NCBI GenBank assembly: GCA_947258515.1
Contig: CAMYIO010000003.1
Coordinates: forward strand, 1-44,396
Source of the DNA: an uncultured Ectothiorhodospiraceae bacterium
Lineage (GTDB): Bacteria; Pseudomonadota; Gammaproteobacteria; UBA9214
Reading direction: 5' to 3'
DNA length: 44,396 nucleotides
How positions within the stretch are numbered: position 1 is the stretch's first letter; each line of letters starts with the position of its first letter. Positions 4,855 to 15,994 of this stretch are shown here, piece by piece. Both the position numbers and the translations under genes were made by a program. Under the pieces are notes generated by a model. The model searched no databases. It was not told the DNA's origin and saw only the letters and a list, made by a program, of their open reading frames with translations.

Positions 4855-5319
4855 TTGACGCTGCTGTTGATCTGGCTGATCGCCAACGGCACACTGGCCA
4901 CCGACACCGTGCTCACCGGCGTGGTGATCACTGCGGCCATCGCGTTCGCCTTCGCCGCCTATTCGCGCGTCTACAGTGTCATCCGCTGGTCACCGCGGGT
5001 GATCTACACCTACCTGCTCTACCTGGGCGTGTTCCTCTACGAACTGGTAAAGGCCAACCTCAACGTGATGCGTTATGTGTACAGTCCGCACATCGATATC
5101 CATCCCGGCATCGTCGAGATCAAGACCAGCCTGCAATCGCCCATTGGCCGCCTGGCACTGGCGAATTCCATCACGCTGACCCCGGGTACCCTGGTGGTGG
5201 ACATGCGCGGGGACTCGCTGTTCATCCACTGGATCAACGTCAGCGTGACGGACCCGGTCGCGGCCACAGAGGAAATCGCCGGGCGTTTCGAGAGATACCT
5301 GAAGGTGATTTATGGTTGA
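4855..5319 (+). CDS. mrpE: MrpE/MnhE-like subunit
   Basis: This small inner-membrane protein opens the Mrp/complex-I-like operon. MrpE is a non-catalytic part of multi-subunit cation/proton antiporters, and MbxA/MbhA is the equivalent in archaeal energy-converting complexes. It has hydrophobic helices near the N-terminus and the conserved middle YLLYLGVFLYELVKANLNVM, followed by the cytoplasmic domain with LANSITLTPGTLVVD and IHWINV. The start is unclear. The frame is open upstream to 4771 with no ATG or GTG, and a plausible N-terminal extension (NLPLQFLNLW) precedes the TTG used here. No Shine-Dalgarno sits before the TTG. It overlaps mrpF by 8 bp. Confidence 0.88.
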   Translation: MTLLLIWLIANGTLATDTVLTGVVITAAIAFAFAAYSRVYSVIRWSPRVIYTYLLYLGVFLYELVKANLNVMRYVYSPHIDIHPGIVEIKTSLQSPIGRLALANSITLTPGTLVVDMRGDSLFIHWINVSVTDPVAATEEIAGRFERYLKVIYG

Positions 5320-5572
5320 TATCGCCCTCAACATCGCCTTTGTGCTGATCTTCTTCAGCATCGTGTTCGGCATTATTCGTCTTGTCATCGGGCCCGATAC
5401 GGTCGACCGGGTGGTCGCCATGGACCTGCTGACCATCATCGCCATTGCAGTGATCGGTCTGCTGGCGCATGTCGCCAACCGCTATATCTACCTCGATGTG
5501 GCCCTGGTCTACGGCCTGCTGAGCTTCCTTGGCGTGCTCGCCGTTGCCCGTTTTCTCGAGAAAGGCATCTAG
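5312..5572 (+). CDS. mrpF: MrpF/MnhF-like subunit
   Basis: This 86-residue protein has three membrane helices and matches MrpF (MbxB/MbhB in archaeal complexes). The signature is IRLVIGPDTVDRVVAMDLL between helices 1 and 2, followed by AVIGLLAHV and YLDVALVYGLLSFLGVLAVARFL. MrpF is needed for assembly and ion movement in Mrp antiporters. The length is typical. Its ATG lies inside the end of mrpE, so translation is probably coupled, and the next gene begins 18 bp downstream. Confidence 0.93.
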   Translation: MVDIALNIAFVLIFFSIVFGIIRLVIGPDTVDRVVAMDLLTIIAIAVIGLLAHVANRYIYLDVALVYGLLSFLGVLAVARFLEKGI

Positions 5573-5590: not shown

Positions 5591-5833
5591 ATGATGATCA
5601 CCTTACTCACCCTGCTGCTCTGCGGCGGAATCCTCATCAGCGGCCTGCTCGCCGTGCAGCTCGACAGCATGGTCAGTGCCGTGATCAGCGCCGGCCTCGC
5701 CAGCCTGTTCGCCGCCGTGGTCTACGTAGTGCTGGCGGCACCCGACGTTGCCATGACCGAGGCCTCGATCGGCTCGGGCCTGTCGACCATGATTTTCCTC
5801 TATGCCATTCGCAAGACACGGGACGAGGACTGA
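5591..5833 (+). CDS. MbhD-like (DUF4040) membrane subunit
   Basis: This 80-residue membrane protein has three helices and the AAPDVAMTEASIGSG motif. That motif marks the MbhD/DUF4040 domain, which in classical Mrp antiporters is fused into the C-terminal part of MrpA. Here it is a free-standing subunit, as in the archaeal Mbh and Mbx complexes. This is one reason to group the operon with energy-converting oxidoreductases rather than a plain Na+/H+ antiporter. A CAGGA sequence about 10 nt upstream supports the ATG at 5591; the second ATG at 5594 is an alternative. It lies 3 bp before mrpG. Confidence 0.9.
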   Translation: MMITLLTLLLCGGILISGLLAVQLDSMVSAVISAGLASLFAAVVYVVLAAPDVAMTEASIGSGLSTMIFLYAIRKTRDED

Positions 5834-5836
5834 CCC

Positions 5837-6202
5837 ATGAGCGAGGTGATCGGCAGCCTGTTTCTGCTCGGTGGCGCGGTATTCCTGTTCTCCGCGGGCC
5901 TCGGTGTACTGCGCATGCCGGACACCTACAACCGTATCCAGACCGGCACCAAGGCCACCACCCTGGGCACCATCCTGATCCTGGTCGGGCTCGCCTTCCT
6001 GCACCCGGCATGGACCTTTAAACTGATTATCCTGATCTTCTTCGTGATGCTCACCAACCCGGTGTCCTCGCATGCCCTGGCGCGCGCCGCGCATGCCATC
6101 GGCACCGCGGAGACCGAGTCCACCGTGATCGACCAGCTGGATGCCACTGCCAACGACGCTACCCGGGAGCATGCGGCCCTGCCAGAGGACCCGCATCCAT
6201 GA
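5837..6202 (+). CDS. mrpG: MrpG/MnhG-like subunit
   Basis: This 121-residue membrane protein has three helices. The MrpG signature LGVLRMPDTYNRIQTGTKATTLGT lies between helices 1 and 2, with the LTNPVSSHALARAAH motif at the end of the third helix. MrpG (MbxC/MbhC in archaeal complexes) helps anchor the cation-translocating part. The C-terminal 30 residues form a polar tail beyond the usual core. The gene overlaps the next start by 4 bp (ATGA), which indicates tight coupling. Confidence 0.93.
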   Translation: MSEVIGSLFLLGGAVFLFSAGLGVLRMPDTYNRIQTGTKATTLGTILILVGLAFLHPAWTFKLIILIFFVMLTNPVSSHALARAAHAIGTAETESTVIDQLDATANDATREHAALPEDPHP

Positions 6203-6939
6203 TCAAGCGCATTGTCATCTTCCTGGTGCTGGTCATGCTGGCGGCTATCTTTCTCAATCTCGCGGCTAACTACAGTGAGAAAACGTCACTGTCGCCACTC
6301 GCTCACTACTATGCCGAGCAGGGGCCGGCAGAGCTCGGTGCCGCCAACCTGGTGACCGCCGTGGTGGTCACCTACCGCGGCCTTGATACCCTCGGCGAGG
6401 TCACCGTGCTGTTCATCTCCGCTGCCGGCGTCGGCCTGCTGTTGCGCCGCACGCGACGCAAGGCAGACGACGAAGACCTGGAAAAAGGCGACCGTGCCGA
6501 GGAAACCGCGGGCGTGCACAAGCCCGCCAGTGAAATCGTCGAGACCGCCACCCAACTGCTGCTGCCGATGGTCATCCTGTTCGGCATCTATGTCTTTCTG
6601 AACGGTCACCTGTCCCCCGGCGGCGGCTTCCAGGGCGGTGCGATTATCGCGTCCGGCACCATGTTCCTGCTGCTGGCGCTGCCTGAATCGCATATCAGCC
6701 GCCTGATGGTCGCCATGACCGAATCGCTCTCCGGTTTCAGTTACGTGGTAATCGGCGTGCTTGGCGTGATCCTGGCAGGCGGCTTCCTCGACAACCGCAT
6801 CATGGGCCTCGGTACCTATGGCAGCCTCTTCAGTGCCGGCGCCATACCGCTGATTTATGTCTTCGTCGGTCTCAAGGTCGGCTTCGAACTCAGTGCGGTT
6901 CTCGACCGCTTCCGCAAGGAGGACACCGGTCCGTTATGA
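6199..6939 (+). CDS. mrpB: MbhE-MrpB fusion subunit
   Basis: The protein joins two parts. Residues 1-90 match the MbhE domain: an N-terminal helix, AANLVTAVVVTYRGLDTLGE and then VLFISAAGVGLLLRR. A charged linker rich in Asp, Glu and Lys follows (about 85-115). Residues 115-246 match MnhB/MrpB, with GHLSPGGGFQGGAIIASG and GLKVGFELSAVLDRF. In Bacillus MrpA the MbhE part is the MrpA C-terminus; archaeal Mbh/Mbx keeps it as a separate gene. Here it is attached to MrpB. The protein is in the inner membrane. It overlaps genes on both sides by 4 bp. Confidence 0.92.
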   Translation: MIKRIVIFLVLVMLAAIFLNLAANYSEKTSLSPLAHYYAEQGPAELGAANLVTAVVVTYRGLDTLGEVTVLFISAAGVGLLLRRTRRKADDEDLEKGDRAEETAGVHKPASEIVETATQLLLPMVILFGIYVFLNGHLSPGGGFQGGAIIASGTMFLLLALPESHISRLMVAMTESLSGFSYVVIGVLGVILAGGFLDNRIMGLGTYGSLFSAGAIPLIYVFVGLKVGFELSAVLDRFRKEDTGPL

Positions 6940-7316
6940 GTTTCCTCGCCGACATGCAGATTTCGCTGATCGTGCTCTGTAGCGGCCTCGGACTGATCCT
7001 TATCGGGCTGTGGGGCATCCTGACGCAACGCAATATCATTCGCATGATCGTCGGTTTCTCGCTGCTCGATACCGGTATTCACATGGTCATGGTGTCCATC
7101 GGTTACGTCACCGGCGGCACCGCACCGATCATCAACGATGCCGTGCCCATGGCCGAGGCCACCAGCCGCATCGTCGACCCGGTACCGTCCGCACTGGTGC
7201 TGACCGCCATCGTCATCGGCCTGGGCGTTACCGCGGTAATGCTGTCCTACGCGGTACGCATTTACAGGGCACGCAAGACGCTGATGATCGACGAGTGCAC
7301 GGAGTCGAAATGGTAG
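6936..7316 (+). CDS. mrpC: MrpC/NuoK-like subunit
   Basis: This 126-residue protein has three membrane helices and is homologous to MrpC/MnhC and NuoK (MbxG in archaeal complexes). Visible motifs are GLILIGLWGILTQRNIIRMIVGFSLLD and the conserved loop DPVPSALVLTAIVIGLGVTAVMLSYAVRIYR, which is diagnostic of MrpC. NuoK-like subunits link the antiporter modules to the rest of the complex and carry part of the ion path. The ATG overlaps the mrpB stop by 4 bp, and the gene ends in the start region of the fused antiporter gene. Confidence 0.94.
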   Translation: MSFLADMQISLIVLCSGLGLILIGLWGILTQRNIIRMIVGFSLLDTGIHMVMVSIGYVTGGTAPIINDAVPMAEATSRIVDPVPSALVLTAIVIGLGVTAVMLSYAVRIYRARKTLMIDECTESKW

Positions 7317-10300
7317 ACAAGCTGGTCACAGAGGTATTGTTGCATCCGCTTGGTATCTATGTGCTGGCGCTCGCTGCCGGCTTCCTGGTGCCGCTGTTTG
7401 ACCGTGCACACCGTGGCTCCGCCATACTGGTGTTCCTCGCGGCCCTCGCCGGCATGGTCGCGATCGCCGCCATCAACCTGCTGGCGATCCTGAACGGCGC
7501 AGCCCCCATCGAGATCGAAACCGCGGGCATTGCGCCACCGTTTTCCATCAATCTGCGCTTCGGCCTGTATGAAGGCGGCTTTGTGCTTGCGGTCAACGGC
7601 ATCGCGCTGCTCGGTGCACTGCACTGGCTGCCGTCGCTGCGGCAACATGCCTCCGCGCTGCTGCTCTACCTGATCATGGTGATGGGCATCAACGGCATGG
7701 TGATGACCCGCGACCTGTTCAACCTGTTCATCTTCATCGAGATCACTTCGATCGCTACCTACGCCCTGATCGGCATGGAGCGCACCGGTTCGGTGCTCGC
7801 CGCCGGTTTCAAGTACATCGTCGCGACCTCGGTGGCTTCGGCCTTCTTCCTGCTGGGCACGATCTTCCTCTATTACCTGACCGGTACGCTGAACATTGAC
7901 GGCATGGTGGCGCAGCGCGAACTGATCAGCGGCCCTGTCGGCTTCATCGCGACCCTGTTTATCCTCACCAGCCTGCTGATCGAGCTGAAGCCTTACCCCG
8001 CCAATGGCTGGGGACTGGACGTCTACGAGACCGCGCCCGGCGGCATCGCCGCACTGATCTCCGTCGGAGTTTCCGCCGGCGTGTTCTTCGCGCTGTTCAA
8101 GACACTGCCGCTGCTGGATGACTACCTGTTGAGCATCGCCGTGGTCGGCGGTGCCACCTTCCTGGTCTCCAACCTCATCGGCCTGAAGCAGGACAACGCC
8201 AAACGCCTGCTTGGTTATTCCTCCATCGGCCAGATGGGCCTGCTGACGCTGGCGCTGGCCGCGACGGCACAGCTGGACGTCGAGGCACAGTTGCCGCTGA
8301 TTGTTGGCGGGCTGTTCATCAACCACCTGCTGGCCAAGGCCGGCCTGTTCTGGCTGGCGGACCTGGTCAACCGCAAGTCAATCGGTGACTGGTCAGTGCT
8401 CGCCGGGCGGCCGCTGCTGTTACTGGTGTTCGGCATCCTGCTGGCCGCGCTGGTCGGCCTGCCGCCGTTCCCCGGTTTCTGGGCCAAGTGGCTACTGGTG
8501 ATGGAAATGGCCAGCGGCGGCCTGTACGGCTGGATTGCCGTAATCCTGCTGGGCTCGCTGCTGGAAGCCGCCTACCTGTTCCGCTGGTTTACGCAAGCCC
8601 TGCAGGCCCGCAAAACCGATGCGCCGGACAGCATCAGCCCCGGAAAACTTGCCCCTGTCGCGCTGACCACCCTGTTGCTGTTTGCTGCCGGCTACGGCAT
8701 GGCCGTGCAACTCGAGACAGACACCCTGGCCATGTTTCTGCCGTTGTTTGCCGGCGCCGCGTTGTGGCTGCTGGACAGCCTGCCGGGCCGCCTGAAGAGC
8801 CTGCTGATGCTGGTAATGGTGGCTGCGGGTGGTGCCTGGCTGACGCTGGACCTGGAAGGCCTGAACCGTATTTTCGGCTACATCCTGGTCGGTGGCGGTG
8901 TACTGGTCAGCCTCGCCACCCAGTACCGGGGCGATGCCCGGAAAGGCTTCTACCCACTGCTCGCGATCCTGCTGCTGTCGCTGGCGACACTGCTGCGCGC
9001 GCACACCAGCCTGGCCTTCTTCTTCAGCTGGGAACTGATGACACTGAGTTCCTATTTGCTGATCACCCTCGGTCGCAACGGCGTCAAGCCGTCACTGACC
9101 TACCTGCTGTTCTCGCTCGCCGCGGCCTACTGCATCCTTGCCGGCTTCGCGCTCGCCTATGCCGCGACCGGCAGTATTGAACTGGCCGCGCTCGGGGGAG
9201 CCGGTGACACCACGGGTCTGGTGTTCAGTCTGCTGGCGGCCGGCTTCGTCATCAAGACCGGTGCGCTTGGCATGCATATCTGGGTGCCGGGCGCCTACGG
9301 GGAAGCGGACGATGACTTCAGCGCCCTGCTCTCCGCCGTGGTCAGCAAGGCCGCCATCTTCGGCCTGCTGCTGGTCGCCGCGCAGCTCGGCGTGCGCTCC
9401 GACATCGGCCTCGACCCGGCCTATGTGCTCGGCTGGATCGGCATGCTCACCGCGACCTTCGGCGCGCTGATGGCCGTATTCCAGGAAGACGTCAAGCGAC
9501 TGCTGGCCTACTCCAGCATGGGGCAGCTCGGCTACATCGTCACCGGCATCGCACTCATGAGCCACCTCGGCTGGGTGGCCGCGCTGTACATGACGGTGAA
9601 CCACTTCCTCTTCAAGGGCATCCTGTTTCTCGCCATCGCCGGGGTCATAGTGCGCACCAACGAGCGCCTCATGTACAAGATGGGCGGACTGATCAAGAAC
9701 ATGCCGTTCACCTTCGTCGCCACCATGATCGCCATCATCGCCATGTCGGGCGTACCGCCACTGACCGGTTTCGGCGGCAAGTGGCTGCTGTTCAACGCCA
9801 TCATGGAAAAGGGCTGGTACTGGCTGGCCGCACTGGCGTTCTTCTCCAGCGCCGTGGCCTTCCTCTACATGTTCCGGCTGCTGCAGACCGTGTTCCTCGG
9901 CCAGCGCAAGCTGGAGCATGCGCAACTGCGCGAGGCACCGGTGATCCTGCTGGTTCCGCAGTTCGTGCTGATCGGCATCATTATGGTGTTTTCCGCCTAC
10001 CCGAAACTGCTGCTCGACCCGCTATCAACAGCCATCAGCCCGTGGCTGGGCGGCAACCTGGTATGGGACGGCCTTGCACTGCAGACCCATCTCGGCTACT
10101 GGAACGCGCCCATGATCATGGGTGTGGTCGCCGGTGTGTGGATGGTGCCGCTGATATTCCTGCTGCTGATGACGCTGACCCTGAAGATCCAGAAGGTCGA
10201 GCAGTTCAACATCGTGTTTGCCGCGGAGCGCCCGCACCGCCCGGAAGAAACGCATTTTGCCTACAACTTTTTCGCGCACTACGACCGCGCCCTCGGCTTC

Positions 10301-10468
10301 CTGGTGAAACCACGGGCGACGGCCTTCTGGAACTCCACCGTCGAGTGGAGCCACTCCCTGGCCGCGTCATTGCGGATTTTCTATAACGGCAACGGCCAGA
10401 CCTATGCACTGCACATCGTGATCTATCTCGTGGCGCTGTACGTGGTGAATGGAGGGCTGCAGCTGTGA
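7310..10468 (+). CDS. Fused double antiporter subunit (two NuoL/MrpD-type modules in one polypeptide)
   Basis: This 1052-residue protein carries two complete proton-antiporter-M modules in tandem. Module 1 (about residues 1-510) has the helix-5 glutamate in FIFIEITSIATY (E144), the helix-7 lysine in LIELKPYP (K227) and QDNAKRLLGYSSIGQMG. Module 2 (about 540-1000) has FFFSWELMTLSSY (E575), VIKTGALGMHIWVPGAY (K649) and QEDVKRLLAYSSMGQLG. The C-terminal tail ends with extra helices. Archaeal Mbx/Mbs has two separate antiporter subunits, MbxH and MbxH', and here they appear covalently joined. I chose the ATG at 7310 because GGAG lies 5 nt upstream and it overlaps the mrpC stop; the frame is open further upstream but only inside mrpC. 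The protein should translocate H+ or Na+. Confidence 0.93.
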   Translation: MVDKLVTEVLLHPLGIYVLALAAGFLVPLFDRAHRGSAILVFLAALAGMVAIAAINLLAILNGAAPIEIETAGIAPPFSINLRFGLYEGGFVLAVNGIALLGALHWLPSLRQHASALLLYLIMVMGINGMVMTRDLFNLFIFIEITSIATYALIGMERTGSVLAAGFKYIVATSVASAFFLLGTIFLYYLTGTLNIDGMVAQRELISGPVGFIATLFILTSLLIELKPYPANGWGLDVYETAPGGIAALISVGVSAGVFFALFKTLPLLDDYLLSIAVVGGATFLVSNLIGLKQDNAKRLLGYSSIGQMGLLTLALAATAQLDVEAQLPLIVGGLFINHLLAKAGLFWLADLVNRKSIGDWSVLAGRPLLLLVFGILLAALVGLPPFPGFWAKWLLVMEMASGGLYGWIAVILLGSLLEAAYLFRWFTQALQARKTDAPDSISPGKLAPVALTTLLLFAAGYGMAVQLETDTLAMFLPLFAGAALWLLDSLPGRLKSLLMLVMVAAGGAWLTLDLEGLNRIFGYILVGGGVLVSLATQYRGDARKGFYPLLAILLLSLATLLRAHTSLAFFFSWELMTLSSYLLITLGRNGVKPSLTYLLFSLAAAYCILAGFALAYAATGSIELAALGGAGDTTGLVFSLLAAGFVIKTGALGMHIWVPGAYGEADDDFSALLSAVVSKAAIFGLLLVAAQLGVRSDIGLDPAYVLGWIGMLTATFGALMAVFQEDVKRLLAYSSMGQLGYIVTGIALMSHLGWVAALYMTVNHFLFKGILFLAIAGVIVRTNERLMYKMGGLIKNMPFTFVATMIAIIAMSGVPPLTGFGGKWLLFNAIMEKGWYWLAALAFFSSAVAFLYMFRLLQTVFLGQRKLEHAQLREAPVILLVPQFVLIGIIMVFSAYPKLLLDPLSTAISPWLGGNLVWDGLALQTHLGYWNAPMIMGVVAGVWMVPLIFLLLMTLTLKIQKVEQFNIVFAAERPHRPEETHFAYNFFAHYDRALGFLVKPRATAFWNSTVEWSHSLAASLRIFYNGNGQTYALHIVIYLVALYVVNGGLQL

Positions 10469-11311
10469 TTGCGGAATGGCTTGGCAGGATCGGTAATTTC
10501 GGCCTGACGCTGCTGATCGTAACCGTCTACGGTCTGCTCGTGGGTGCCTTCATCGAACGCACCATTGCCAAGGTACAGGGCCGTATCGGCATTCCCTACC
10601 GGCAGCCGTTTATCAATATCCTGAAGACGCTGGTGAAGCGCACCGCCGTCAGTCACGGCATCATGTTCTATCTCGGGCCGGTGTTCCGTATACCTGTTCC
10701 TGGTGATCTACTTCATGTTCTTCGGCCAGCTCGGCATGGCGCTGGGCGCCGGCGAAAGCGGCCATCCCTACAGTGCCATCGGCATCGCCCGCGGCCTGTC
10801 GCAAATGACCGCCTACGAGGTGCCATTCGCGCTGGCGGTGATTTCCATCGTTATCCAGTACGACACCCTGTCGCTCACCGAGATCGTGGCCGCGCAGCAG
10901 GGCGGCTGGCAGAACTGGACGCTGTTCACCAACTGGGTGGCAACGCTGGCGGCCATGCTGGCCTTCCTTGGCATGACGGGCTATTCACCCTTTGACATCT
11001 TCCTGGCGCCGCAGGAGATTCCGATTGGCCCGCCGACCGAGTTCCACAGCAGCTTCCTGTCATTGCTGCAGACCAACCGTGCCTTGTTCGGTGCCACCAA
11101 GCTGATCCTGTTCATGAACCTGTTTTTTGGCGGCGCCACCGGCTGGATCGAATTAATGATCAAAACCCTGGCAATCTATATGATTGCGGTGATCGTCGGT
11201 GTGGCGTTTCCGCGTTTCCGTGTCGACCAGTCGATCCGCTTCTTCTTCAAGTACCCGACACTAATCGGCATCGCGTCTATAGTGTATGTACAGATGGTAA
11301 TCGCACCCTGA
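10465..11311 (+). pseudogene. NuoH/MbxM-like membrane subunit, frameshifted and apparently shortened
   Basis: The gene starts at GTG 10465 with GGAGGG 8 nt upstream, overlapping the previous stop. The first frame gives IERTIAKVQGRIGIPYRQPF and runs to FYLGPVFRI near 10690, then becomes nonsense. The +1 frame continues as VYLFLVIYFMFFGQLGMALG to 11311, with SPFDIFLAPQEIPIGPPTEF and a final membrane helix. NuoH/EchB-type proteins normally have about 25 more residues between the LGP motif and the next helix. The lesion therefore looks like a deletion of a non-multiple of 3, not a single-base slip. Total coding capacity is about 282 codons against 310-330 for the family. This subunit bridges the hydrogenase-like arm to the antiporters, so the damage would disable the complex unless it is an assembly error. 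Confidence 0.85.
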
Positions 11312-11346: not shown

Positions 11347-11979
11347 ATGACAAAAGACCTGAGCACTGAAGCAACCCTGGAAAATGCCGGGTTATCCGTC
11401 GAGGATCAGCAACTGTTCTCCAATGCGCGGCCGCGCGCCTATGAACCCTACCCGATCAAGGCGGTGGAGGATTTCGCCAACTGGGCGCGGGCAAACTCAC
11501 TGTGGATCCTGGCCTTTGGCACCGGCTGCTGCTCGATCGAGCTGCGCCCGCTGATGACTGCGCGCTTCGACGCCAGCCGCTTCGGCGTTGCCGGCAGGCC
11601 GACGCCGCGGCAGTCGTCGGTCTTCATCATCGGCGGTTACGTCTCGGTAAAAACGCTGAAGCGCATCGTGCGCAGCTACGAGCAGATGCAGGGGCCGAAA
11701 TTCATCATTGCCCTCGGCAGCTGTCCGGCCAACGGCGGCATGTACTTCGACAGCTACAACACCATCAACCAGTTCGACCTGTACCTGCCTGTGGACCTGT
11801 ATGTCACCGGCTGCATGCCGCGGCCGGAAGCGCTGCTCGGCGCCATCCTCGAACTGCAGGATGACATCAAGGCGGGTAACTGCGACGGCGCCAACCGTTA
11901 TATCGAACACTTCGACGAATACAAGGCCAACCAGAAGAAGGTCATCAAGAACTGGAACATGCCGGATTACAACTGGTAA
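11347..11979 (+). CDS. NuoB/MbxJ-like small subunit carrying the proximal [4Fe-4S] cluster
   Basis: This 210-residue soluble peripheral subunit is homologous to NuoB, HycG and MbxJ. Four cluster ligands are in place: the Cys pair in FGTGCCSIEL (C61, C62), GSCPANGG (C126) and TGCMPRPEA (C156). The RFDASRFG and RPTPRQS segments contact the large subunit in the family. It passes electrons between the ferredoxin-type subunit and the NuoD-like active-site subunit. GGGAGG at 11333-11338 sits 8 nt before the ATG. The N-terminal 45 residues and C-terminal tail are polar extensions. It is followed by the NuoC- and NuoD-like genes. Confidence 0.94.
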   Translation: MTKDLSTEATLENAGLSVEDQQLFSNARPRAYEPYPIKAVEDFANWARANSLWILAFGTGCCSIELRPLMTARFDASRFGVAGRPTPRQSSVFIIGGYVSVKTLKRIVRSYEQMQGPKFIIALGSCPANGGMYFDSYNTINQFDLYLPVDLYVTGCMPRPEALLGAILELQDDIKAGNCDGANRYIEHFDEYKANQKKVIKNWNMPDYNW

Positions 11980-12012: not shown

Positions 12013-12555
12013 ATGATGAGTGAACTGCTGGACAGACTGGTGCGTGATTTCGCTGTCACTGATATTACCGAGCGCCCTCCGGCAATCACCACGCTGAAGG
12101 TGAGCAAGGAAAACGGCGAACGGCTGATCCGCGAACTGCGCGACCGCGAAGGTTTCACCCACCTGGCTTTCGTCGCCTGCACCGACTGGATCGAGGACGG
12201 ACTTTTCAGATTGATCTACATGCTGCACAACTATGACAGCAAACAGAACCTCGGCGTGCACATCGACATCGACCGCGACAACGCCGAGATGACCTCCATC
12301 CATACGCTGTGGGCACAGGCCTGGACCTACCAGCGCGAACTGCGCGAGATGTACGGCATCAACTTTCCCGGCAGCCCGCGACTCGAGGAGGATTTCTGCC
12401 TCGAGGGCTGGGATGACATGCCGCCGATGCGGCGTGATTTCGATACCGTGAAATACAGTACGGAACGCTTCGGTCACCGCGAGGGCCGGGTCAGCCTGGA
12501 GCCGCGCGACCACATGCAGGTGCAGCTCTACCCGACTCGCGGAGGGGACAAATAA
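12013..12555 (+). CDS. NuoC/MbxK-like subunit
   Basis: This 180-residue protein matches the NuoC/30 kDa and HycE-N/MbxK family. The hallmark is the segment IHTLWAQAWTYQRELREMYGINFPGSPR (about 97-124), equivalent to the WxEREVxDMFGIxFxGHP signature. The preceding part has the family's alpha/beta fold with FTHLAFVACTDW. It holds the small and large catalytic-arm subunits together and has no cofactor. Two ATGs occur at 12013 and 12016. Its stop overlaps the ATG of the NuoD-like gene by one base. Confidence 0.92.
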   Translation: MMSELLDRLVRDFAVTDITERPPAITTLKVSKENGERLIRELRDREGFTHLAFVACTDWIEDGLFRLIYMLHNYDSKQNLGVHIDIDRDNAEMTSIHTLWAQAWTYQRELREMYGINFPGSPRLEEDFCLEGWDDMPPMRRDFDTVKYSTERFGHREGRVSLEPRDHMQVQLYPTRGGDK

Positions 12556-13724
12556 TGGCGCCAACAACCGGCCATTCCGCCGCGCTGGACTTTGCCCAGC
12601 CCGAACCGGTCGACCTGTCGTCGGGCAAATACGTCAAGCTGTGGCAGGGTCCGCAGCACCCCGGCATCACCGGCAACATGTCGCTGGAGCTGACACTGGA
12701 TGGCGACACCATTATCGAGTGCAAGACCCACGTCGGTTACCTGCACCGCGGCTTCGAGAAACTGATGGAACAGCGCAGCTTCATCCAGAACTTCACCGTG
12801 GTATGCCGCATCGCGGTGCCCGAGCCGGCCTTCAACGAATACCTGTACGCGGCCGCGCTCGAGGCGATCAGCGGCGTCGAGTCGCCCGTGCGTGCACAGT
12901 GGCTGCGTACGCTGAACCTGGAAATGATGCGCCTTGCCAGCTTCCTGATGTGGATCGGCGGCCAGGGCGGCGCGTTCGGCCAGTATACCGTGGCCAACTG
13001 GACGCTCACCTACCGTGACTACGTGCTCGACCTGTTCGAGGAAATGACGGGGGCGCGCATCTATCACATGTACATGGTGCCCGGTGGCGTACGCGCCGGA
13101 CTGCCGGCCGGATTCGAGCAACGCATTCTCGAACTGATGGACAATACCGACAAGCTGCTCGACCAGATCGAACGCGTGATGTACAACAACGTGGTGTTCA
13201 AGGCACGTGCGAAGGGTCTCGGCATTATACCCCCCGAGATGGTCGACCCCTACGGCGTGGTCGGCCCGAACGCACGTGGCAGCGGTTTCACGCGTGACCT
13301 GCGCAAGGACGAACCCTACCTGGTATACGACCAGCTCGACTTCGATGTCATCAGTGGCAGCGCCGGCGATGCCTACGAACGCGCGTACCTGCGCTTGCAG
13401 GAAACACGCCAGAGCGTCAACCTGATTCGCCAGTGCATCGCCGGTGCGCCCGCGGACGGCCCGTTCCAGGCGGACATGCCGAACATGCTGCACTGGAAGG
13501 TGCCGGCTGGCGAGACTTACGTCAAGGCCGAGTGCACCCGCGGCGAATACGGCTATTACATGGTGACCGACGGTACCGAGATCGTGCGCCGCGTACACGT
13601 GCGCGGTCCGAGCTACACCCATGCCATTGCCGTGATGGAGCGCATCGCGGTCGGCACCAACATCGCCGACATCGCCGGCCTGATGGTATCGCTGCACACC
13701 TATCCGCCCGAGATCGAGAGGTAA
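12555..13724 (+). CDS. NuoD/MbxL-like large subunit without NiFe ligands or quinone-site residues
   Basis: This 389-residue protein is homologous to NuoD and to the large subunit of group 4 NiFe hydrogenases. Family landmarks are GPQHP (32-36), HVGYLHRGFEKLME (59-72), FLMWIGGQGG and the ARGSGFTRDLR segment. The hydrogenase ligand motifs are absent: the N-terminal CGxC position reads FTVVCRIAV (only C84), and the C-terminal DPCxxC position reads SLHTYPPEIER. The complex I quinone residues also differ. By motif alignment, the His of PxxHG is Thr39 and the Tyr is Val82. So it is neither a hydrogenase nor a standard quinone reductase subunit and fits the Ehr/Mbx group. The true electron acceptor is unknown. 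It follows the NuoC-like gene directly. Confidence 0.92.
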   Translation: MAPTTGHSAALDFAQPEPVDLSSGKYVKLWQGPQHPGITGNMSLELTLDGDTIIECKTHVGYLHRGFEKLMEQRSFIQNFTVVCRIAVPEPAFNEYLYAAALEAISGVESPVRAQWLRTLNLEMMRLASFLMWIGGQGGAFGQYTVANWTLTYRDYVLDLFEEMTGARIYHMYMVPGGVRAGLPAGFEQRILELMDNTDKLLDQIERVMYNNVVFKARAKGLGIIPPEMVDPYGVVGPNARGSGFTRDLRKDEPYLVYDQLDFDVISGSAGDAYERAYLRLQETRQSVNLIRQCIAGAPADGPFQADMPNMLHWKVPAGETYVKAECTRGEYGYYMVTDGTEIVRRVHVRGPSYTHAIAVMERIAVGTNIADIAGLMVSLHTYPPEIER

Positions 13725-13737
13725 GCGAAGTAAACTC

Positions 13738-15546
13738 ATGAGCCTGAAAGACCTGCTATCACCGTTCTACGTCTGGCAACGCGCCTTCGAGAAACCCTAC
13801 ACCAGCATCCGTCCGATACAGGAGCGTCCCGGTGCGGCCGCCTATCGCGGCTTTCATATCAATATCAGCGAGCAATGTATCGGTTGTGGCACCTGCCACG
13901 CGATCTGCCAGAACGATGCCATCGACATGGTCAGGGTCGAGACATTCGAGGGCCGCAACGGCGACAGCGGGCTGCGTCCGCGGTTCGACTACGGCCGCTG
14001 CTGCTGGTGCGCCCTGTGCGTGGATATGTGCCCCGCCGGTTCGCTGCGCATGAGCAACGAGTACACCTGGATTACCAGCGACCCGACCGAGTATCACTTC
14101 ACTGCCGGTGTTGAACACACCACCTGGCAGGAGAATCCGCTGGGTTACCGCCGCGCGGAAGGTTACCACCTGTACCCGCCGAAGCGCATCGAGATGGACA
14201 TGCTGGCAGCGGACAAGAGCGTGCAGTCGTTTGATGAAGTGGTCACGGGCTACAGCGAGGAACAGGCGAGGCTGGAAGCCGATCGCTGCATCGAGTGCGG
14301 CATCTGCGTCGCCACCTGCCCGGCGCACATGGACGTGCCGGATTACATTCGCAGCATACGCGACGGCGACTACGAGCAGGGACTGCAACTGATGTACCGT
14401 ACCAACCCCTTCCCCGCCACCTGCGGACGCATCTGCACGCGCCGCTGCGAGTCGGTGTGCCCGGTCGGTATCCAGGGAGAACCGATCGCCATCCGCTGGC
14501 TGAAACGTTTCATCGTCGACCAGGTCGCGCCGCAGGACTACGCGCGCATTCTCGCCGACCAGACCGGCGACAGCGGCCGCCGCATCGCCGTCATCGGCGC
14601 CGGTCCGGGCGGCCTGAGCGCGGCCTATTATCTGCGCAAGCAGGGCCACGCGGTGACCGTGTTCGAGGCGCAGGAAACGGCTGGCGGCATGCTGCGCTAT
14701 GGTGTACCCAGCTACCGCCTGCCGGACGCGGACCTCGACAAGGATATCAATTACATCGTTTCACTTGGTGTCGACATCCGCTACAACACCCGCATCGGCA
14801 AGGACATCGGCTTCGATACACTGCTGCAGGACTTCGATGCGGTATTCCTGTCCACCGGCCTGTCGGTACCCTCCAGCATGCGCATCCACGGCGAAGATCA
14901 CCCGCGCGTGCTCTCCGGGCTGCAGGTGCTCGCCGATGTCGCCAGCGGCCGCGACCCGGGCGTCGGCCGCAAGGTCGCGGTCATCGGCGGCGGCAACGTC
15001 GCCATGGATGCGTCGCGGGTATCACGCCGGTTCGGCGCCGATGTCACCATCCTCTACCGCCGCCGCATCGCCGATATGCCGGCGGACGATGAAGAAATAC
15101 ACGAATCCCAGGAAGAAGGCTGCCGCATCGTCACCCAGGCGATTCCGGTTGAAATCATCGCAGCAGACAACCCGCAACAAGTATCAATCAAATGGGGCGA
15201 GGCCGAAATGGTGCAGGATCCGAAAGGCGGCCGGCCACGCCCGGTACTGCAGGAAGACAGGATGCATGTCGAGACCTACGACTGCATCATCTCCGCCATC
15301 GGCCAGGGTAGTGACCTCGACTTCCTGACAAAAGAGGTACAGAACCAGCTGGCCATCGAGTGGGGGAAATTCACGCCGGGTGAATACCAGCACACACTAC
15401 TGGAAAAGATTTTCGTCGGCGGTGATGTCGCCAACCGCGTCGCCGATGCCATCAGTGCCATCGAGGACGGCCATCATGCCGCGCGCGGCATCGACCGTTT
15501 CCTGAACCCGGATGCCTATTCACAGAACGATCAGAAGGTGAACTGA
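13738..15546 (+). CDS. Ferredoxin-GltD-like FAD/NAD(P) oxidoreductase fusion
   Basis: This 602-residue soluble protein has two halves. Residues 1-150 are a NuoI/MbxN-like module that begins SLKDLLSPFYVWQRAFEKP. It has two [4Fe-4S] motifs, with Cys at 47, 50, 53 and 57 and at 88, 91, 94 and 98. Residues 165-600 are a GltD-type domain with CIECGICVATC (184-194), CGRICTRRCESVC (229-241) and an FAD site IGAGPGG (about 286-292). Its pyridine-nucleotide site is VIGGGNVAMDASR (about 417-429), followed by YRRRIADMPADDEE. The Arg-rich loop after the second Rossmann fold is typical of NADP(H)-binding GltD relatives, but specificity is inference. It replaces NuoEFG as the likely electron entry or exit. 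The gene ends 1 bp before the rubrerythrin-like gene. Confidence 0.92.
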   Translation: MSLKDLLSPFYVWQRAFEKPYTSIRPIQERPGAAAYRGFHINISEQCIGCGTCHAICQNDAIDMVRVETFEGRNGDSGLRPRFDYGRCCWCALCVDMCPAGSLRMSNEYTWITSDPTEYHFTAGVEHTTWQENPLGYRRAEGYHLYPPKRIEMDMLAADKSVQSFDEVVTGYSEEQARLEADRCIECGICVATCPAHMDVPDYIRSIRDGDYEQGLQLMYRTNPFPATCGRICTRRCESVCPVGIQGEPIAIRWLKRFIVDQVAPQDYARILADQTGDSGRRIAVIGAGPGGLSAAYYLRKQGHAVTVFEAQETAGGMLRYGVPSYRLPDADLDKDINYIVSLGVDIRYNTRIGKDIGFDTLLQDFDAVFLSTGLSVPSSMRIHGEDHPRVLSGLQVLADVASGRDPGVGRKVAVIGGGNVAMDASRVSRRFGADVTILYRRRIADMPADDEEIHESQEEGCRIVTQAIPVEIIAADNPQQVSIKWGEAEMVQDPKGGRPRPVLQEDRMHVETYDCIISAIGQGSDLDFLTKEVQNQLAIEWGKFTPGEYQHTLLEKIFVGGDVANRVADAISAIEDGHHAARGIDRFLNPDAYSQNDQKVN

Positions 15547-15547
15547 T

Positions 15548-15994
15548 ATGAATACCGTTGATGAAATTCTGGATTATGCCATTGACCAGGAACAGCAGGC
15601 CGCCGACTTCTACGCGGACCTTGCCGGCCGCGCCGAAAAGGCCGGCATGAAGGACATCCTGCTGGACTTTGCCGCAGAGGAACAGGGTCACAAGCAACGG
15701 CTGCTGGCCGTAAAGGCCGGTGACCACGAACTCACGCCGGAACAGGAAATACTGGACCTGAAGCTATCCGACTACCTCGTCGAGATCGAGGCAAAAGAGA
15801 ATATTTCCTACCAGGATGCATTGATCGTCGCCATGAAACGCGAGCGCGCCGCCTTTCAACTGTATACCGACATGGCGGCGAAGGTTCCCGAGAGTCACCT
15901 GAAGGAAGTCCTCGAAGGGCTTGCCAGGGAAGAAGCCAGGCACAAGCTGTTTTTTGAATCCGAATACGACGAACGCGTACTGCAGGACAACTAG
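15548..15994 (+). CDS. Rubrerythrin-like ferritin-superfamily diiron protein
   Basis: This 148-residue protein is a four-helix ferritin-like domain. Diiron ligands can be placed at E15 (DQEQQAADFY), E45 and H48 (EEQGHK), E99 (KRERAAFQLY), and E129 and H132 (EEARHK). The rubredoxin domain of classical rubrerythrin is missing. Such proteins act as peroxidases or in iron handling. It begins 1 bp after the oxidoreductase stop and ends the operon, which suggests it receives electrons from that enzyme or protects the Fe-S complex from peroxide; this is inference. Its ATG at 15548 follows AAGGTG about 7 nt upstream. Confidence 0.88.
   Translation: MNTVDEILDYAIDQEQQAADFYADLAGRAEKAGMKDILLDFAAEEQGHKQRLLAVKAGDHELTPEQEILDLKLSDYLVEIEAKENISYQDALIVAMKRERAAFQLYTDMAAKVPESHLKEVLEGLAREEARHKLFFESEYDERVLQDN

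Follow-up and report, generated by a model that had tools for sequence, protein, structure and literature searches.

Which reaction is carried out by a NuoD-like subunit that has the active-site residues of neither a [NiFe] hydrogenase nor complex I? The question arises from an open reading frame at 12555-13724 (+), encoding a product of 389 amino acids, in a 44,396-nucleotide stretch of DNA (the window) from an uncultured Ectothiorhodospiraceae bacterium. A sequence-only reading of this DNA had proposed that the protein has lost both NiFe ligand pairs as well as the quinone-site His and Tyr, that the NuoB cluster next to it is intact, and that a different substrate is likely.

Complexes of this general kind – with Mrp antiporter subunits joined to a hydrogenase- or complex I-like module – have been described before. 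MBS of Pyrococcus furiosus (formerly Mbx) lacks His38, Tyr87 and E21, its residues C85 and C385 are dispensable, and its proximal cluster, with only three Cys ligands, itself reduces polysulfide (Yu et al. 2020, PMC7684303); two of the four NiFe cysteines are already lost (PMC7684303). MBS serves as an intermediate in models of stepwise complex I evolution, in which NiFe cysteines were lost and a quinone was then gained. Ehr complexes are by definition without NiFe ligands (PMC6349859), so the window complex fits Ehr in the wide sense. Bacterial Mrp-Mbx complexes have been reported from Thermotoga maritima, where mbxA is up 4.4-fold with S0 (PMC9431562), and from the Riftia symbiont, a sulfur-oxidizing gammaproteobacterium in which Mrp-Mbx and the sulfur globule genes both share co-expression neighbors with the rTCA cycle (PMC11636981).

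Here, we examine the window operon together with its relatives in public genomes. On balance we favor the view that the gene encodes the MbsL/MbxL subunit of a bacterial Mrp-Mbx complex that translocates ions, reduces sulfane sulfur via the NuoB proximal cluster, and is fed by NAD(P)H and/or ferredoxin. By sequence comparison, the core subunits tested are closest to those of Pyrococcus MBS, and the pocket has neither the NiFe residues nor those of the complex I quinone site, nor E21 of MBH. The complex probably works on sulfur compounds rather than on quinones or hydrogen.

Gene content of the operon

The operon extends from an MrpE-like gene (from 4855) to a NuoI-GltD fusion (ending at 15546), and is followed by a rubrerythrin-like gene. 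Its genes and the codons discussed below are as follows.

4855..5319 (+): MrpE-like antiporter subunit (Pfam MNHE PF01899, E 1.9e-37), kept in the operons of relatives
5312..5572 (+): MrpF-like subunit (Pfam MrpF_PhaF, E 2e-17)
5591..5833 (+): small membrane protein, MbhD/MrpA-C-like; position kept in relatives, family by inspection only
5837..6202 (+): MrpG-like subunit, kept in relatives; named by inspection
6199..6939 (+): MbhE/MnhB-like subunit (Pfam MnhB and MbhE)
6936..7316 (+): MrpC-like subunit, kept in relatives; named by inspection
7313..10468 (+): fused double antiporter MrpD-MrpD, equivalent to MbsH plus MbsH', 1051 amino acids, GTG start (alignments to 6u8y_H and 6u8y_X)
10465..11311 (+): NuoH/MbsM-like membrane anchor, interrupted (blastn against the L015 nuoH)
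11347..11979 (+): NuoB/MbsJ-like subunit, proximal [4Fe-4S] cluster (best PDB match 6u8y_J, E 2.1e-58)
11527..11532 (+): tandem Cys61-Cys62 codons (TGC TGC); Cys62 is Gly in nearly all relatives
12013..12555 (+): NuoC/MbsK-like subunit (Pfam Complex1_30kDa, E 3.4e-24)
12555..13724 (+): NuoD/MbsL-like large subunit (best PDB match 6u8y_L, E 1.9e-91)
12669..12671 (+): Thr39 codon, at the Nqo4 His38 position
12798..12806 (+): Val82-Val83-Cys84 codons, with Val82 at the Nqo4 Tyr87 position
13695..13703 (+): His381-Thr382-Tyr383 codons, at the hydrogenase DPCxxC and MbsL DNC385 positions
13738..15546 (+): NuoI-GltD (NfnL-like) fusion (6u8y_N for the NuoI part, 5jca_L for the GltD part; conservation)
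15548..15994 (+): rubrerythrin/ferritin-like protein (Pfam Rubrerythrin, E 1.2e-12)

P. furiosus MBS (6U8Y) is the best solved relative of NuoD, NuoB and the double antiporter, and also of NuoH as encoded by the related locus L015, where the gene is intact and its product matches 6u8y_M (E 2e-41). The two systems share an Mrp module and two MrpD-like pumps in one operon, but the window complex is bacterial, its MrpD pumps are fused, and MbsN is replaced by the NuoI-GltD fusion. The N-terminal half of MrpD-MrpD matches 6u8y_H and the C-terminal half 6u8y_X (MbsH', E 1.5e-65); the latter retains the pump residues Glu (in FSWE) and Lys (in VIKTG, VSKAA and GGKW), which belong to the proton path in complex I and Mrp. 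Complex I (NuoD/NuoB, or Nqo4/Nqo6) has the same fold, but differs from the window complex in its quinone His and Tyr, its NuoEFG module, its tree position and the absence of an Mrp module. The NuoEFG NADH module is not in the window operon, which has the NuoI-GltD fusion instead.

The NuoI part of the fusion matches 6u8y_N, and its C-terminal 440 residues match NfnL (5jca_L, E 2e-77) and also resemble the NfnL-like parts of formate dehydrogenases; NF010590 covers the fusion at full length, with a score below its cut-off. Seventeen Cys are invariant in 79/79 sequences (one site being X in one row), enough for four [4Fe-4S] clusters, and the GltD part has two cluster motifs. FAD and NAD(P) motifs are present, the FAD motif being intact. 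Likeness to NfnL/GltD flavoproteins lies in the C-terminal 440 residues, whereas here GltD is fused to NuoI as part of a membrane complex; bifurcation is putative.

The motif YRRR...MPAD, typical of NADPH-binding GltD proteins, is present in the fusion of the window lineage, and is replaced in alphaproteobacteria, Bacteroidota and a second Mbx type (described below). The replaced YRRR lies near residue 436-450 in L065, L068, L074, L078, L093 and L006-L014. Nucleotide preference may therefore differ, and the replacement suggests, at the level of sequence, that some members of the family use another nucleotide or no longer bind NAD(P).

The large-subunit pocket

The MbsL chain 6u8y_L outranks complex I as the solved relative of window NuoD. 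Thermus Nqo4 (2fug_4) is also readily aligned with HMMER (E 1.8e-66), gap-free through both quinone positions: GPQHPSTHG of Nqo4 pairs with GPQHPGITG, placing Thr39 at His38, and NITYTPR pairs with NFTVVCR, placing Val82 at Tyr87. No other His or Tyr is moved into the quinone site by an insertion in this alignment, and displacement of the ligands by an insertion around either site is ruled out. The assignment of these quinone-site replacements in the sequence-only reading is thus borne out, as is the loss of both NiFe ligand pairs: the hydrogenase ligand regions are NFTVVCRIAV (FTVVCRIAV in that reading) and SLHTYPPEIER, with no CxxC pairs for NiFe.

The two NiFe positions that MbsL keeps, C85 and C385, are Ala87 and Tyr383 in window NuoD. 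Cys84 occupies a Leu position of MbsL and is not a former NiFe ligand. An equivalent of MbhL Glu21 is absent, as judged from the His38 region, which is without Glu; the protein thus differs from the group 4 [NiFe] hydrogenases (MBH), to whose superfamily it and the Ehr complexes belong, in both the CxxC pairs and E21. The AlphaFold2 model has the 49-kDa/NuoD fold (mean pLDDT 85), and 6u8y_L is top by target TM-score (0.91) among the matches listed; pocket residues 35-39 are below pLDDT 50.

Scanning public genomes gave 216 relatives, and we fetched and compared the 80 best. They span Gamma- and Alphaproteobacteria, Magnetococcales, Spirochaetota, Bacteroidota, Calditrichota, Caldisericota, Delongbacteria and others, and the gene order – Mrp module, fused MrpD-MrpD, NuoH-B-C-D, NuoI-GltD – recurs wherever a contig extends far enough to show it. 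Among these 80, T39 and C84 do not vary, and the pocket is nearly fixed (GPxHPG[IV]TGN, VCR, PPE[IV]ER), with residues 381-389 near-invariant across phyla. At position 383 (that of MbsL C385), five deep-branching loci have Cys and all others Tyr. Given this conservation, the pocket is not a chance product. Position 87, that of MbsL C85, is Ala or Cys and has changed at least four times on the tree; together with the Cys kept at 383 in the deep loci, this points to a stepwise loss of the last NiFe cysteines.

In the NuoD tree, the window family and MbsL are set apart from complex I with support 100/100, MbsL having a long branch. Since MBS is already without the quinone-site His and Tyr and two NiFe Cys, the loss in the window is the known MBS condition carried further: the bacterial family has gone further along the same path, to the loss of the last two NiFe cysteines, and has no quinone site. 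A second, more distant gammaproteobacterial Mbx type (L006-L014) has Glu at position 39, SLDACPPEVDR, and YCTGCGAIE in NuoB; both remaining cysteines are thus kept, as is a Glu close to that of MBH.

The tandem cysteine of NuoB

In nearly all relatives the NuoB motif is GTGCG, the three-Cys proximal pattern of MBS, and these relatives are also without an equivalent of MbsJ C25 (Gly58 in the window). Window NuoB has four cysteines – C61, C62, C126 and C156 – and so differs from MBS in the extra Cys62; the complex is therefore best described as a derived variant of the MBS type. The statement in the sequence-only reading that the NuoB cluster is intact holds for the four Cys of the window, which is however the exception, nearly all relatives having three. 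Within the family it is this tandem Cys, rather than NuoD, that is the odd feature, and it had been missed.

The tandem motif GTGCC, in the same columns as that of complex I, occurs in the window and four relatives (L015, L022, L023 and L024). In a tree built without the motif columns, the five NuoB sequences group together (support 96) within the GTGCG relatives, and a single change accounts for the distribution of GTGCC; genomes of the window genus include both motifs. S63 and A128 accompany G62C, position 128 being Ala only in this clade. From the tree, the complex I-like pair is interpreted as a single nested regain, and not as inherited. A sequencing error is ruled out by differing synonymous codons in the four other loci, among which L022 and L024 are near-identical (a further locus, L102, has the same sequence as L015). 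L022 and L023 are two Mbx operons in one MAG (MAG_Ve_Sed_41), both with a tandem-Cys NuoB, reflecting either duplication or a binning mix.

This natural regain offers a direct test of the idea that a three-Cys cluster makes MBS a sulfane-sulfur reductase. We raise as a tentative proposal, rather less probable than not, that an MBS-type complex re-evolved the complex I tandem Cys through G62C and thereby closed the catalytic iron site, so that it either carries out another reaction or only transfers electrons; such ligation would then have arisen twice.

A probable role in sulfur metabolism, and competing functions

In the mechanism that we favor, electrons from NAD(P)H and/or ferredoxin would enter at the NuoI-GltD fusion and reach the proximal cluster of NuoB, a [4Fe-4S] center. 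In the chamber that lies between this subunit, NuoD and NuoH, they would then split the S-S bond of a substrate with sulfane sulfur (polysulfide or persulfide). This reaction would drive proton or sodium movement via the double antiporter and Mrp module; in sulfur oxidizers the reaction may reverse, with NADPH formation driven by the proton motive force. Several points count against it, among them the interrupted nuoH of this assembly. The tandem Cys of the window clade might fill the iron position at which catalysis is proposed to occur, which makes the MBS mechanism less certain for that clade; the same chemistry could persist only if the potential fourth ligand is labile, a property proposed for N2 of complex I. 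Also, with NAD(P)H as donor and polysulfide as acceptor, little energy is available to drive a machine with two pumps, unless ferredoxin is a further donor.

The link to sulfur comes from genome content and from the published work on relatives, such as the response of T. maritima mbxA to S0 and the co-expression neighbors of the Riftia complex. In a 274-genome sample of the class, dsrA is present in 12/12 Mbx carriers of either type and in 80/262 other genomes (12 families; Fisher p 1.2e-6, a value that ignores kinship). It is also found in 16/17 proteobacterial carriers examined. These 16 include four carriers of alphaproteobacterial or Magnetococcales lineages and the window's own genome, where dsrA is partial and at a contig end; the organism is probably a sulfur oxidizer. 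That contig (G000 contig 136, 2-7045) carries a dsrAB fragment followed by a 672-aa GltD-like ORF resembling DsrL. Among non-proteobacterial carriers examined dsrA is present in 0/12, so the sulfur link there is by analogy. Nitrogen fixation, with the complex supplying electrons for nitrogenase, was considered as a common physiology and rejected, nifH being above cut-off in only 6/29 carriers. These findings suggest an overlooked ion-pumping sulfur enzyme in many sulfur-oxidizing bacteria.

The main rival is an Rnf-like, ion-motive ferredoxin:NADP+ oxidoreductase, in which both partners would react on NuoI-GltD and NuoB/NuoD would only couple, around an empty cavity. It draws on the GltD half, which is NfnL-like, has an intact FAD motif and carries the NADPH-type motif in the window lineage, and on the tandem Cys, which could render the cluster of the window clade purely electron-transferring. 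P. furiosus Mbx was itself once considered a ferredoxin:NADP+ oxidoreductase (PMC6349859), but sulfane sulfur reduction by the same complex was shown later (PMC7684303). The invariance of T39 and C84, and the near-invariance of 381-389 across phyla, would be unexpected in an empty site, and the three-Cys proximal cluster of the GTGCG majority and the strong dsrA association also speak against this rival, which we therefore consider unlikely.

A quinone reductase using other head-group residues – in effect another form of complex I, with NAD(P)H as electron donor – is improbable. The tandem Cys of window NuoB is complex I-like, and the NCBIfam model NF004739, 'NADH-quinone oxidoreductase subunit D', scores window NuoD above its cut-off, so the Mbx subunit is likely annotated under that name in public genomes. 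However, equivalents of His38 and Tyr87 are missing family-wide, the NuoD tree sets the family apart from complex I, and the window's own genome already encodes a complex I-type nuoD. A UbiA-family prenyltransferase (PF01040) is absent from five spirochaete MAGs with the same pocket, subject to MAG incompleteness; as this family was positive in all 14 controls including Thermotoga, only its absence is informative. The proposal of a different substrate is thus well supported, by the MBS-closest homologues, the conserved pocket, the carriers without UbiA and the proteobacterial carriers with dsrA; the cavity, neither hydrogenase nor quinone in type, is not a new one, having been described for MBS (Yu et al. 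2020, PMC7684303).

A decaying complex, with an active site on its way to being lost from the large subunit and an operon that is a pseudogene cluster in the window, is very improbable. In its favor, only 5/13 genomes of the genus have the gene (several of these MAGs being incomplete), and when window nuoH is compared with its 90%-identical L015 counterpart (blastn), 80 bp are missing, out of frame, at about 10691/10692. Against it, the measured operon genes are under purifying selection (omega 0.06-0.13 against L015), nuoH is intact in L015, and the pocket is conserved family-wide. The deletion is probably an assembly fault, since the same assembly has an unrelated stretch inside a conserved gene. 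On contig 175 (L003) of this MAG, the foreign stretch replaces the quinone-site region of complex I nuoD.

Two neighboring genes recur beside the operon. A rubrerythrin/ferritin-like gene lies immediately 3' of it in about 26 loci from several phyla, the only recurrent neighbor common to several phyla, and possibly serves in peroxide protection or as a flavoprotein partner. An ArsR-family regulator with two invariant Cys is directly downstream in seven spirochaetes (L043, L044, L049, L051, L053, L055 and L061), to which this neighbor is confined. SurR, the sulfur-responsive regulator of the Mbx/MBS complex in Thermococcales, is of the ArsR family, and the spirochaete gene is a candidate sulfur-responsive regulator.
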